Origin: Chryseobacterium mulctrae
GTDB lineage: Bacteria; Bacteroidota; Bacteroidia; Flavobacteriales; Weeksellaceae
Direction: 5' to 3'
Assembly (NCBI RefSeq): GCF_006175945.1
Contig: NZ_VAJL01000001.1
Coordinates: 2,108,001-2,172,000, forward strand
DNA length: 64,000 bases
The notes beneath the pieces were generated by a model. That model searched no databases and was not told where the DNA came from. It saw only the letters and a list, made by a program, of their open reading frames with translations. Made by a program: the position numbers and the translations under genes. Positions 4,538 to 47,416 of the stretch are shown here, piece after piece (position 1 is the first letter of the stretch; every line of letters starts with the position of its first letter).

Positions 4538-5432
4538 AATAGGAACCCGAAATTCTGCACTTGCACTTTGGCAGGCTAGAGAAGTTGCAAGACATTTGCA
4601 AAACCTTAATTATCTTACCGAGATTGTCCCAATCGTTTCTTCAGGCGACAAAAATCTTAATCAACCTCTTTATTCTTTAGGAATTACAGGGGTTTTTACA
4701 AGAGATTTAGACATCGCCTTGCTGAATGACGAAATTGATATTGCTGTGCATTCCCTAAAAGATGTACCCACAAAATTACCCGAAAATATAGAAATCGTCG
4801 CTTATCTTGAAAGAGATCATCCGCAGGATGTTTTGATTAAAAGAAAATCGGCAATGAATAAAGAATTTCACGAACTTAAATTGGCGACAAGCAGTTTAAG
4901 AAGAAGGGCTTTCTGGTCTAAAAATTATCCTGATACAGAATTTTTTGACATCAGAGGAAACATTCAGACCAGACTTCAGAAACTGGAAGAGCAGGATTTT
5001 GATGCAACCATTTTATCTCTGGCTGGAATTAAAAGAATGAAAATGGATATCGATTACGAATTTCTTCCATTCATGATTCCTGCGCCTTCACAAGGTGTGG
5101 TTGCCGTTGCAGGACATTCCGACAAAAAAGAAATCAACGATATTCTGAAACAAATTAGTCATAAGCAAACTCAAATTTGTATAGAGATTGAAAGAAATTT
5201 CCTGAGTACTCTTGAAGGAGGTTGTACCGCACCAATTGGAGCTTTTGCTGAAAAAATTGAAAACCAGATCAGATTCAAGGCTGCTCTTTGCTCTTTGGAT
5301 GGAAAAAACTATATCGCCACCGACGAAAGTTTTGAATATAATGAAGAAGAAAATTTTGGCGAAAAATTTGCCAAAATTGTTTTAGAAAACGGAGGTAAAG
5401 AATTGATGACTGAAATTAAAACTCAGCTTTAA
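4524..5432 (+). CDS. hemC: Hydroxymethylbilane synthase (porphobilinogen deaminase)
   Basis: Polymerises four porphobilinogens into hydroxymethylbilane. The 302-residue protein has the RIGTRNSALALWQA start (residues 5-18), the VHSLKDVPT active-site loop (75-83), arginine-rich substrate contacts (SSLRRRAF, 123-130) and the cofactor cysteine Cys234 in EGGCTAPIGA, which carries the dipyrromethane. It overlaps hemA by 14 bp in another frame. A perfect heptamer array begins on the first base after its stop. Confidence 0.96.
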   Translation: MKSIRIGTRNSALALWQAREVARHLQNLNYLTEIVPIVSSGDKNLNQPLYSLGITGVFTRDLDIALLNDEIDIAVHSLKDVPTKLPENIEIVAYLERDHPQDVLIKRKSAMNKEFHELKLATSSLRRRAFWSKNYPDTEFFDIRGNIQTRLQKLEEQDFDATILSLAGIKRMKMDIDYEFLPFMIPAPSQGVVAVAGHSDKKEINDILKQISHKQTQICIEIERNFLSTLEGGCTAPIGAFAEKIENQIRFKAALCSLDGKNYIATDESFEYNEEENFGEKFAKIVLENGGKELMTEIKTQL

Positions 5433-5467
5433 GGTTTTAGGTTTTAGGTTTTAGGTTTTAGGTTTTA
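5433..5467 (+). repeat. Perfect 7-bp tandem repeat, (GGTTTTA)x5
   Basis: Five exact copies of GGTTTTA followed by GGC, beginning at the base immediately after the hemC TAA. This is one of several 7-bp-period arrays in this window that fill intergenic spacers but use different unit sequences. Confidence 0.97.
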
Positions 5468-5474
5468 GGCAAAA

Positions 5475-5495
5475 TTAAGATTTTCTGAATCTTAA
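5475..5495 (+). terminator. Possible weak hairpin downstream of hemC
   Basis: An 8-bp AT-rich stem (TTAAGATT / AATCTTAA) with a 5-base loop. It is not followed by a clean T run, so termination here is doubtful. Confidence 0.3.
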
Positions 5496-43217: not shown

Positions 43218-43218
43218 T

Positions 43219-43300
43219 TAGATACTAGATGCTAGACAATAGATTCAAGACCTTGAAAGTCTGAGATCTAATTTCTAAAATCTAATTTCTAAAATCTATT
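43219..43300. repeat. 7-bp-period array with inverted halves, between carrier gene and sufB
   Basis: From one base after the carrier stop: TAGATAC / TAGATGC / TAGACAA / TAGATTC (43219-43246), a few mixed units, then two exact copies of ATCTAATTTCTAAA (43266-43279, 43280-43293) and ATCTATT. The left half reads TAGAT and the right half ATCTA, so the halves are inverted. It ends three bases before the sufB ATG. Confidence 0.85.
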
Positions 43301-43303
43301 AAA

Positions 43304-44752: not shown

Positions 44753-44779
44753 TACTTCTGCTCAGCTTAGTCTGACACG

Positions 44780-44857
44780 TTTTTGTCATTCTGAACGAAA
44801 TGAAATGGAGTGAAGAATCTCAATTAAAAGATTTCTCCTCCGTCGAAATAACAAAAA
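44780..44857. repeat. Dispersed inverted repeat with TTTGTCATTC-like ends (copy 2)
   Basis: TTTTTGTCATT at 44780-44790 is inverted against AATAACAAAAA at 44847-44857, and GAAGAATCT pairs with AGATTTCTC inside. It shares ACGTTT and GTCATTCTG with the copy at 8630. It lies between sufB and sufC. Confidence 0.7.
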
Positions 44858-44888
44858 TAAAATTATAAAAAAGTTTTAAACATATATA

Positions 44889-45632
44889 ATGTTAAATATT
44901 AAAAACTTACACGCCAGAATTGAAGATGGCGCACAGATATTAAAAGGTATCAATCTTGAAATAAAACCGGGCGAAGTTCATGCGATCATGGGACCAAACG
45001 GAGCTGGAAAATCTACTCTTTCTTCTGTAATTGCAGGGAAAGAAGATTACGAAGTTACTGAAGGTGAAATTTTATTTGATGGTGAAAACATCATCGAAGA
45101 TGCTCCTGAAGAAAGAGCTCACAAAGGTATTTTCCTTTCTTTTCAATATCCTGTAGAAATTCCTGGAGTTTCTGTGACCAATTTCATTAAAGCTGCTTTA
45201 AATGAAAACAGAAAAGCAAACGGATTAGAAGAAATGCCTGCAAAAGAAATGTTGGCAATGATTCGTGAGAAATCTGAGAAATTAGGTATTAAAAAAGATT
45301 TTCTTTCTAGATCATTGAACGAAGGATTTTCAGGAGGTGAGAAAAAAAGGAATGAGATTTTCCAGATGATGATGCTGAATCCTAAATTAGCTATTTTGGA
45401 TGAAACAGATTCAGGATTAGATATCGACGCATTGAGAATCGTTGCAGATGGTGTAAACACTTTCAAAAACGAAGGAAATGCAGTTCTTTTGATTACGCAC
45501 TATCAAAGATTGCTTAATTATATTCAGCCTGATTATGTACACGTTTTAGCGAACGGAAAAATCATTAAAACAGGCGACAAATCTTTAGCATTGGAATTAG
45601 AAGCAAAAGGTTACGACTGGCTACTCAATTAA
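44889..45632 (+). CDS. sufC: Fe-S cluster assembly ATPase SufC
   Basis: The ABC-type ATPase of SufBC2D. The 247-residue protein has Walker A GPNGAGKST (35-43), ABC signature LNEGFSGGEKKR (144-155), Walker B KLAILDETDSGLD (168-180) and the H-loop in LLITHYQRLL. The stop TAA is immediately followed by the left heptamer array. Confidence 0.97.
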   Translation: MLNIKNLHARIEDGAQILKGINLEIKPGEVHAIMGPNGAGKSTLSSVIAGKEDYEVTEGEILFDGENIIEDAPEERAHKGIFLSFQYPVEIPGVSVTNFIKAALNENRKANGLEEMPAKEMLAMIREKSEKLGIKKDFLSRSLNEGFSGGEKKRNEIFQMMMLNPKLAILDETDSGLDIDALRIVADGVNTFKNEGNAVLLITHYQRLLNYIQPDYVHVLANGKIIKTGDKSLALELEAKGYDWLLN

Positions 45633-45660
45633 TTTGAAATTCGATATTTGAAATTTGACA
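45633..45660 (+). repeat. Left 7-bp-period array flanking the four-helix gene
   Basis: TTTGAAA / TTCGATA / TTTGAAA / TTTGACA. It begins on the first base after the sufC stop and contains the putative TTG start of the four-helix gene. It is inverted relative to the array at 46083. Confidence 0.82.
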
Positions 45661-46061
45661 TTTTGGGGACAATAAATAATTTTGAAGATTTAGAAATTTG
45701 GCAGAGTTCTCGAAATTTCTGCCAATCAATATATCAAAATTGTCTGCAAAACGAAAAATTTCTACATCACGATAAATCTCAGATTGACAGAGCTGCTTCT
45801 TCAATAATGAATAATATTGCAGAAGGCTTTGAAAGAGAAGGGAATCGTGAATTTGTCAATTTTCTGACAATGTCTAAAGGCTCGGCTGGTGAAGTTCGTT
45901 CTCAGTTGATAAGAGCATATGACAGACAATATTTAGACAGTGAAACATTTATAAAACTTAAAAATGAAAGTCTTGAGATTTCAAAAAAACTATCGGGATT
46001 TATTACTTATTTGAAAAAATCAACTCATAAAGGAAATAAATTTAACCGAAATGATGATTAG
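45648..46061 (+). CDS. Four helix bundle protein, 23S rRNA intervening-sequence-protein family
   Basis: A 137-residue all-helical protein. Motifs NFEDLEIWQSSRNFCQSIY (near 11-29), IMNNIAEGFERE (near 53-64) and EFVNFLTMSKGSAGEVRSQL are the S23/IVP (TIGR02436) signature. Members sit inside 23S rRNA insertions or as stray copies; a related fold is Avd of retroelements. Function unknown. The start is uncertain: TTG at 45648, or TTG at 45663. It has no role in Fe-S chemistry that I know of and looks like an insertion into the suf operon. Confidence 0.8.
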   Translation: MKFDILGTINNFEDLEIWQSSRNFCQSIYQNCLQNEKFLHHDKSQIDRAASSIMNNIAEGFEREGNREFVNFLTMSKGSAGEVRSQLIRAYDRQYLDSETFIKLKNESLEISKKLSGFITYLKKSTHKGNKFNRNDD

Positions 46062-46082
46062 CCAAAAGGTTTTCATTCACAA

Positions 46083-46110
46083 TTTCAAATCTCAAACTTC
46101 AAATCTCAAA
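46083..46110 (+). repeat. Right 7-bp-period array flanking the four-helix gene
   Basis: TTTCAAA / TCTCAAA / CTTCAAA / TCTCAAA, reverse complement-like to the left array at 45633. It ends one base before the sufD ATG at 46112. Confidence 0.82.
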
Positions 46111-46111
46111 T

Positions 46112-47416
46112 ATGTTATCAGAGCAAATTTTAAATAATCACAGCGAATTTCTTAGTACCCTTCGTCATCGTTTTTTAGATGAAACGAGAGTTGAAGCATT
46201 AGGAAAATTTGTTAAACTTGGTTTTCCTACGAAGAAAGACGAAGAATATAAATATACCAACATTAAAGAAATCATCGAGAAAGATTATAATTTTTTCCCG
46301 AAAGAAAGCCATAACATCACCAAAGAGCAACTTGATGAGCTACATTTTGGAGAAGAAAATTTTGACTGGATCGTTTTTGTAAACGGCCAGCTTCACAAAG
46401 AGCTTTCTAAGATTTCTATTGAAAACGCAGAGTTTTTATCATTCAATTACGCTTTGAATGACGAAAATCACAAAGATGTTTTCGATACCTATTTCAATAC
46501 AATTGCAGCAAAAGATTTAGCCTTTACAAACCTGAATCAAGCTTACTGTAAATACGGATTTTTCCTGAAAGTGCCTAAAAATGTTGTGATTGAAAAACCA
46601 ATTCACGTTTTTTATCTTTCTCAAAATCAGGAAGAAAACACTTTCTATAACACAAGAAATTTATTGATTGTAGAAGAAGGAGCAAAAGTTGAAGTGATTG
46701 AAAGCCACCACAATTTTGATGAAACTTATGTTTTCACCAATTCTGTGACAGAAATTTTCACATCACCGAACGCAAAAGCAGATTGGCATAAATTGCAAAA
46801 TGACAATGATACTTCTTATTTGGTAGATCATACTTTCGCAAAACAGGAAAGAGACAGTTTAACGACAGTCAATACTTTTTCTTTTGGCGGAAAAATCGTT
46901 AGAAATAATTTAGATTTCATTCAAAACGGATCGAATATCAATTCTTTCATGAACGGAATCACGATTATCGGTAAAGATCAGTTGGTAGATCACCACACTG
47001 CAGTTCATCATAATCAGCCAAACTGTGAAAGTTACCAGAATTATAAAGGTATTTTTAAAGATAAATCTCACGGAGTTTTCAACGGAAAAGTTTTTGTAGA
47101 TAAATTGGCACAAAAAACCAATGCTTATCAGCAGAATAATAACGTTCTTTTAAGCGAAGGAGCTACAATTGATACAAAACCTCAGTTGGAGATTTTTGCA
47201 GACGACGTGAAGTGTTCTCACGGTTGTACCGTTGGACAGCTAAATAAAGACGCTTTATTCTATCTTAGAGCAAGAGGAATTTCTAAGAAAGAAGCTCAGG
47301 CTTTATTGTTATTTGCTTTCGCAAACGATGCAATGCAGAATATCGACATCGAGCCTTTAAAGGAAAAAATTTCAAAGCTTTTGACAGAAAAACTGGAAGT
47401 TAGTATTGAGTTTTAA
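46112..47416 (+). CDS. sufD: Fe-S cluster assembly protein SufD
   Basis: The third subunit of SufBC2D, needed for iron acquisition. The 434-residue protein shares the SufB-fold beta-helix; visible motifs are KVFVDKLAQKTNAYQQNNNVLLSEGA and DDVKCSHGCTVGQLNKDALFYLRARGI (in parts), the conserved Cys-x-His-Gly region near residue 375. Normal length, ending at a strong terminator. Confidence 0.95.
   Translation: MLSEQILNNHSEFLSTLRHRFLDETRVEALGKFVKLGFPTKKDEEYKYTNIKEIIEKDYNFFPKESHNITKEQLDELHFGEENFDWIVFVNGQLHKELSKISIENAEFLSFNYALNDENHKDVFDTYFNTIAAKDLAFTNLNQAYCKYGFFLKVPKNVVIEKPIHVFYLSQNQEENTFYNTRNLLIVEEGAKVEVIESHHNFDETYVFTNSVTEIFTSPNAKADWHKLQNDNDTSYLVDHTFAKQERDSLTTVNTFSFGGKIVRNNLDFIQNGSNINSFMNGITIIGKDQLVDHHTAVHHNQPNCESYQNYKGIFKDKSHGVFNGKVFVDKLAQKTNAYQQNNNVLLSEGATIDTKPQLEIFADDVKCSHGCTVGQLNKDALFYLRARGISKKEAQALLLFAFANDAMQNIDIEPLKEKISKLLTEKLEVSIEF

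Follow-up and report, generated by a model that had tools for sequence, protein, structure and literature searches.

Why would a small four-helix-bundle gene sit between sufC and sufD, framed by two arrays of 7-bp repeats that are reverse-complement counterparts of each other? The question is raised by a 478-bp unit in a 64,000-nt stretch of the Chryseobacterium mulctrae genome (contig NZ_VAJL01000001.1, positions 2,108,001 to 2,172,000), the window to which the feature coordinates refer. The initial annotation had described a four-helix gene with inverted heptamer arrays, the left one flush with the sufC stop codon and the right one ending one base before the sufD ATG, and this anatomy proved exact:

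43218..43303, + strand: gene-less heptad hairpin with heptamer TAGATAC/TTTAGAT, occupying the whole spacer between an erpA/iscA-type gene and sufB (RNA fold z -3.88)
44889..45632, + strand: sufC, the upstream neighbour (TIGR01978, 358 bits; ORF list), whose stop codon abuts the left arm
45633..45660, + strand: left arm, four heptamers TTTGAAA TTCGATA TTTGAAA TTTGACA (sequence reading and arm comparison)
45663..46061, + strand: 23S_rRNA_IVP/four helix bundle gene, 132 aa (PF05635, TIGR02436), its TTG start inferred from orthologues
46083..46110, + strand: right arm, TTTCAAA TCTCAAA CTTCAAA TCTCAAA, the reverse-complement counterpart of the left arm
46112..47416, + strand: sufD, the downstream neighbour (TIGR01981, 280 bits; ORF list)

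A single base (46111) separates the right arm from the sufD ATG. The encoded protein, an IVP, matches PF05635 at 106 bits (cut-off 33.8, E 1.4e-30) in a Pfam scan and TIGR02436 at 104.9 bits (cut-off 24) in an NCBIfam scan; this four-helix family is its sole match, with no nuclease domain in either scan and no transposase domain in the Pfam scan, which returned PF05635 only. The longest open frame spans 45648-46061, and its first TTG (45648) falls within the left array; TTG 45663 (GTINNFEDLEIW...) is the more likely start because orthologues have start codons at that place, ATG in G322 and G294 and GTG in G311 and G293. The two arms align in inverted orientation at a score of 20, against a shuffled-flank 99th percentile of 15 (from 92 loci, with slightly different flank cuts), and the cassette RNA folds at z -3.35 with the arms partly paired. 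Sequence relatives in the PDB are 2gsc and 2rld, with five chains each. Two candidate identities were rejected: the protein has no PADLOC match at E 0.01 that would make it an anti-phage gene, and no known Rfam RNA lies within the window at the gathering threshold. The sufB-sufC gap (44753-44888) holds sequence of the type GTCATTCTGAACGAA...GAAGAATCTC, which we take to resemble a dispersed palindromic repeat.

Is the unit an insertion? It had been proposed that gene and arrays behave as one piece of DNA, inserted without breaking either suf gene, with a comparison of the sufC-sufD spacer across Chryseobacterium relatives as the check, and this check was positive. Among the 30 junctions read, those of the 30 closest SufC matches in 118 genomes of the genus, 23 have a plain spacer of 92-142 bp before a recognisable sufD start and lack the unit. 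The unit is intact in two (C. mulctrae itself and G018), carries an in-frame stop in the IVP gene in one (G053, by reading) and is reduced to arms with a gutted gene in two (G060, G088). Other small ORFs (L039, L063) occupy the remaining two spacers (G001, G079); by eye one is of the SRPBCC/AHSA1 type and one hydrophobic, and heptad arms were not seen. A further sufC-side IVP copy, 57% identical and with a stop inside, is present in G056. In G074 the SufC protein is identical to that of C. mulctrae, yet the junction holds an unrelated 101-bp spacer, and 100-bp flank bins match at 92-100% except one of 84%: the cassette is present in one and absent from the other of two close relatives with collinear flanks. 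Relatives without the unit do keep sufC and sufD; in other points the insertion picture needs amending. The unit (i) fills the whole junction rather than being merely added, with an unrelated spacer in its stead in relatives; (ii) is separable into gene and arms, since arms persist without the gene and gene-less hairpins occur elsewhere in the genome; and (iii) has long occupied its junction, judging by tree, orthologues and divergence, and is no recent arrival there.

The separability is visible at the suf junction itself. The left arm has the same sequence in G018 and a similar one in G060 and G088, and is still recognisable in G311, G293, G294 and G322. The right arm differs by at most one base in G060 and G088, and in G060 not at all, although both have a gutted gene. 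Here the gene decays first, and the arms can persist after it. As to long-term residence, the nearest relatives of the suf IVP among the best-scoring loci (82-71% identical; four genomes of three other genera) also lie in the sufC-sufD gap, and the next two (70% and 69%) sit in another junction. Nucleotide identities to G018, G311, G293, G294 and G322 are 0.95, 0.81, 0.80, 0.71 and 0.69 for the IVP gene, 0.97, 0.83, 0.85, 0.78 and 0.82 for sufC, and 0.92, 0.73, 0.76, 0.65 and 0.76 for sufD, so the IVP diverges roughly in step with its neighbours. The protein is under purifying selection (dN/dS about 0.07-0.11).

The same holds for IVPs at large. In a midpoint-rooted FastTree tree of 157 IVP proteins, the junction label changes 19 times over the 106 rows that belong to the 18 junctions with three or more members; 5 of the 18 (gmk-nadD, sufB-sufC, erpA-sufB and two thiolase junctions) are not single clades. 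IVPs mostly reside in one junction and rare moves did happen; frequent transposition among junctions is rejected by these counts, which also set the suf-type cassette, seldom changing its site, apart from an insertion sequence or MITE. Three further junctions, DinB-rlmB, rsmD and purC-purF, repeat the suf picture: some species have an IVP cassette, and those without it have, by eye, either a gene-less heptad hairpin with a different word or an AT-rich spacer. The four patchy junctions show four differing patterns over the species they share, and no target duplication was seen by eye in their spacers. At DinB-rlmB, the upstream gene ends in GEKY with the cassette and in GEKGR without it. Flank identity was measured at two of the four junctions; for the closest pair, C. 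mulctrae and G074, most 60-bp bins match at 93-100%, and those beside the junction are somewhat lower (0.88, 0.93 and 0.88 on three of four sides, with one inner bin at 0.78). The names sufB, sufC, sufD, erpA-type, purC, rlmB and rsmD come from family matches and the other junction names from reading of neighbouring sequences, by which no function common to IVP junctions is apparent. By the same kind of reading, one IVP junction of this genus is that of Flavobacterium columnare where, in the accessible part of the source, a four helix bundle gene between the guanylate kinase and NaMN adenylyltransferase genes appears in a table of phage regions (PMC5524665).

How do cassettes come to reside in a junction? 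A homing-type selfish element would account for junction-specific lineages, for patchiness among close relatives and for decayed copies at the same junctions: the IVP would cause the cassette to be copied into genomes that lack it, at the same junction, in a cycle of gain, fixation, decay and loss like that of homing endonuclease genes, and IVP ORFs are indeed known from rRNA insertions that otherwise mostly encode such endonucleases (PMC11270868, available text). We nevertheless consider homing unlikely. The IVP differs from a homing endonuclease in that Pfam and NCBIfam scans find no endonuclease or other nuclease domain in it, its divergence roughly tracks that of sufC and sufD, and the same junctions exchange gene-less hairpins of other heptamers even where no IVP is present, so that ordinary recombination may suffice.

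Are inverted 7-bp flanks more than a product of chance? In 1.2 Mb of the C. mulctrae genome, arrays with at least 17 of 21 matches number 35 at lag 7, 23 at lag 14 and 16 at lag 21, against 0-6 at each of the remaining lags from 5 to 20; a Markov control gives none at lags 7, 14 and 21 and 0-2 at other lags. The genome has five PF05635 genes, all with inverted 7-periodic flanks by eye and with differing words, of which four reach an inverted arm score of 16 and one (L004) does not. PF05635 was found in 116 of 118 genomes of the genus, at 0-18 copies each, and in 116 of 148 genomes of a phylum sample. These five loci and the 30 best-scoring ones from each of the genus, family and phylum searches, which is about one per genome and not a random draw, make up a set of 92 (L028 is too short and L155 repeats the own locus). 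In a first test, 61 of the 92 exceed the 99th percentile of shuffles in inverted orientation and 12 in direct orientation, with a best lag of 7 in 79 and of 8 in 9; among control ORFs of the C. mulctrae genome, 20 of 334 are inverted and 79 of 334 have a best lag of 7, and left arms match right arms of other loci in 49 of 725 comparisons. Because many of the 92 loci are orthologues, the test was repeated on a single locus from each junction; of the 57 junction labels, 47 were scorable. Inverted flanks were found at 36 of the 47 (p<0.01), a positive outcome for the check that had been proposed on other four-helix genes, and direct ones at 6; the best lag is 7 in 37, 8 in 8 and 10 in 2. Co-directional control ORFs, taken from the C. 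mulctrae genome only, are inverted in 6 of 137 cases and have a best lag of 7 in 38 of 137. Lag counts, shuffles and control genes disfavour chance or base composition. By eye, the arms of L128, L132, L144 and L147 in the phylum sample look to have period 8 rather than 7.

Placement is as regular as periodicity. IVP genes lie in sense orientation between two same-direction genes at 84 of the 92 loci, against a background of 112 of 199 (C. mulctrae ORFs of 100-160 aa). In the 56 of these 84 with an arm score of 16 or more, no more than 10 nt separate the upstream stop codon from the left arm in 46 and the right arm from the following ATG in 34, and the median loop length is 405 nt. At 61 loci, the paired stretch of an arm is 36 nt on average, or about five heptads. 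The heptamer words vary between junctions but agree between both arms of a locus, with a mean arm-to-arm match of 18.6 within a locus and 10.6 against arms of other junctions. A fixed recognition word is thereby rejected; what is common is a weak core, TNAGNTT, in 251 arms of 192 loci, a set that includes orthologues and three repeated loci (A 0.88, G 0.76; 2.40 bits of information, against 1.84-1.93 with columns permuted within arms). Own arms score 18.6 on average against each other and 17.0 against arms from the same junction in other species. Between close species, own arms pair no better than swapped ones, whereas with diverged words they are clearly better (22.4 vs 14.6 at sufB-sufC, for example); own arms are better in 54 cases and worse in 52, and the Wilcoxon p of 0.006, by size of difference, is due to the junctions with diverged words.

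A second alternative is that the IVP serves its host: it would bind the stem of its own mRNA and tune expression or processing at the junction, with the arms as operator or RNase III site. Sense orientation inside operons of core genes, a dN/dS of about 0.1, arms that outlast the gene and folding better than shuffles (z -3.9 for the 43218-43303 hairpin and -3.4 for the suf cassette) all speak for such a regulator. Close relatives manage without the cassette at the same junction, though, the IVP junctions show no common function by reading of neighbours, and sense-strand G-U pairs are not in excess: stem mismatches include 71 sense and 85 antisense wobbles. Such a regulator is improbable. With no G-U preference in sense RNA, RNA pairing is not the evident selected form, and a stem under selection on the sense transcript is not favoured. 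Long-range duplex energies computed over whole flanks fail to set the loci apart, since at the 1% level only 2 of 92 differ from shuffles. Stop codons are enriched in the arms, all three frames being closed by 39% of left arms (shuffled, 17%) and 25% of right arms (shuffled, 5%); selection of left arms for stops is only a hint because right arms exceed shuffles too. Net charge has a median of +1 in 88 IVPs and +5 in 12 bAvd proteins, and since IVPs are only weakly basic, nucleic-acid binding is not obvious.

The arrangement extends to several phyla. Within the best 80 loci listed for one alignment, with phylum assigned by record titles, 11 of 14 non-Bacteroidota loci (two titled only 'bacterium') are inverted and 13 of 14 have a best lag of 7; the Bacteroidota loci of the same listing give 48 and 52 of 66. 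Further copies from ten non-Bacteroidota genomes, 30 loci of which 5 were too short and 8 of the remaining 25 repeat loci of the 14-locus set, are inverted in 24 of 25 cases (p ≤ 1/60), with a best lag of 7 in 19 of 25. The taxa, by record title, include Ruminococcus, Clostridia, Acidobacteriota, SAR324, Peregrinibacteria, Ignavibacteriae, Opitutae and Fodinibius. A Chryseobacterium aahli IVP copy is 95% identical to another IVP of the own genome (L302). Two loci (L356 and L405, from a Muribaculaceae MAG and an Ignavibacteriae genome) have a best period of 9 and are still strongly inverted; the flanks of L341, L376 and L378 have strong direct-repeat similarity, with inverted similarity also in L376 and absent from L341 and L378. 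A natural comparison is the DGR accessory protein Avd (PF22296), a family related to IVPs whose weaker hits are IVP-like proteins. Here the flanks part ways: strong DGR-type bAvd loci are inverted in 0 of 13, with a best lag of 7 in 3 of 13 (3 of 16 were too short), and weak bAvd hits that resemble IVPs are inverted in 11 of 12, with a best lag of 7 in 6 of 12. In this comparison, the direct neighbours of the suf IVP are suf genes.

If the arms belong with the gene, what are the gene-less arrays? The hairpin at 43218-43303 matches the arms of a resident IVP, L001, at a score of 24, and two other genomes (G009, G087) have an IVP gene in the very erpA-type/sufB junction that it fills in C. mulctrae. 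Inverted heptad pairs in spacers of 55-200 bp are found in 18 of 318 co-directional, 1 of 85 divergent and 1 of 58 convergent spacers of this genome, one of the 18 being part of the suf element and a few AT-rich ones doubtful by eye. Compared with the arms of the five resident IVPs, 50 gene-less arrays score 16.3 on average, with 16 of the 50 at 20 or more and 34 below 20. Thirty control sets of five from 22 other junctions of the genus average 14.2 (maximum 15.6), so that none reaches 16.3, and thirty sets of five IVPs from other genera average 11.7 (maximum 12.7). The match was not repeated in G181, which has only 5 arrays in 660 kb: its own mean is 12.0, and 28, 26 and 30 of 30 control sets are as good or better. 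Other arrays were seen in passing. A tandem TTTTAGG, five perfect copies in a row, is intergenic in the window (5421-5475) and has one arm as far as seen; elsewhere in the genome, compound arrays of perfect copies look recently expanded (1154356-1154482, GTTAGGA x9 then TTTTTAC x5; 4390860-4390974, AAAAGTA x9 then ACCCTAA x4).

The weakest alternative, that all of these are simple sequence repeats made by polymerase slippage and inverted by hairpin-guided correction, with the link to four-helix genes coincidental, can draw on the many gene-less arrays of this genome and on heptanucleotides being reported, in the available texts, to outnumber the other longer repeats in most of the surveyed genomes (PMC4679880, PMC4692102), but is disfavoured, and very improbable, given inverted flanks at 36 of 47 IVP junctions against 6 of 137 own-genome controls, at none of 13 bAvd loci, and again beside IVPs of other phyla.

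The explanation that we advance, with moderate confidence, is that the unit is a junction-resident IVP cassette, built like the intervening sequence (IVS) of 23S rRNA and organised like RAYT and REPIN, whose alleles would be swapped and whose protein ring would act on its own stems. The anatomy itself is observed: an S23/IVP four-helix-bundle gene lies in the loop of a long imperfect stem of tandem 7-bp arms, and together they fill a whole operon spacer. Cassettes and gene-less heptad hairpins would be alternative alleles of one junction, exchanged mainly when homologous recombination takes place in the conserved genes on either side. The arms may render an insertion harmless to its neighbours because they carry stops in several frames while both genes stay complete or almost so. 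As a ring-shaped oligomer, the IVP may act on stems built from its own family of heptamers, folded from either single-stranded DNA or RNA; gene and gene-less hairpins would then form an autonomous/non-autonomous pair like that of RAYT and REPIN. Counted against the cassette reading are the weak charge of IVPs, the missing match in G181, the 34 of 50 arrays below 20, the moves between junctions, the lower bins beside the junction, spacer replacement with no visible target duplication, the lack of a wobble excess and the lack of an own-arm advantage among close species.

How does such a cassette compare with known systems? It shares with the 23S rRNA IVS of Leptospira and Coxiella the S23/IVP protein family, a gene enclosed by complementary ends that can pair into a stem, patchy presence at fixed sites and decay of the ORF. 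The accessible text on the IVS describes the complementary ends, the Coxiella case of a patchy IVS with a decaying ORF, a ring-shaped homopentamer for the Xanthomonas S23 protein and a family with no known function (PMC4990558). An IVS has its defining place in rRNA and is cut out of its transcript by RNase III. The suf cassette lies between protein genes, outside 16S and 23S rRNA, and its arms are built of 7-bp tandem units whose word is specific to the junction. The second parallel is RAYT and REPIN. A RAYT is by definition a Y1/HUH tyrosine transposase. The IVP has no transposase domain, the hairpins are heptad arrays of many words and any mobilisation is putative; what is alike is that single genes are inherited in place beside a population of short, intergenic, gene-less hairpins (PMC8049555, as far as available), with a match between gene and hairpin family that is indicated in C. 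mulctrae and failed in G181 (5 arrays).

Stems and arrays of heptanucleotides have also been described apart from IVPs. The P6b stem of the Nostoc trnL intron consists of complementary degenerate heptanucleotides, and its repeat classes swap at one place while the structure is kept; it differs from the IVP cassette in lying within a group I intron, and a gene in the loop is not mentioned in the available part of that text (PMC4476775). TAACTGA heptamers of Beggiatoaceae, Cyanobacteria and some Bacteroidetes likewise form intergenic 7-bp tandem arrays beside start and stop codons; unlike IVP arms, they have one fixed word and, in the portion of the source available, one inverted case (PMC4679880). 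The terms 'four helix' and 'intervening sequence' are absent from the main text of that paper. A literature search that mostly fell short of subscription papers found no description of IVP genes with heptad arms, which is no proof of absence.

Could one principle cover all phyla? Possibly, although we regard this wider reading as doubtful: in a cross-phylum class of elements, a pentameric four-helix ring would read spacing rather than sequence. Each subunit would take one short unit, the arms having about 4-5 heptads and sharing an A-G core that recurs at 7-nt intervals. Every lineage would have its own heptamer word, the IVP would spread and persist at operon junctions jointly with its gene-less hairpins, and the 23S IVS would be just the rRNA branch of the class.

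IVP genes framed by heptad arms point to an overlooked kind of genetic cassette. For the IVP/S23 family, which has solved structures (2gsc, 2rld), inverted heptad arrays are a consistent partner in cis and offer a testable substrate. Some of the heptanucleotide repeats that have been noted in bacterial intergenic regions may be due to IVP cassettes. For Chryseobacterium and its relatives, the spacers of core operons such as suf and pur and, going by reading of neighbours, those of groES-groEL, nuo and car are replaceable as whole cassettes between close relatives.
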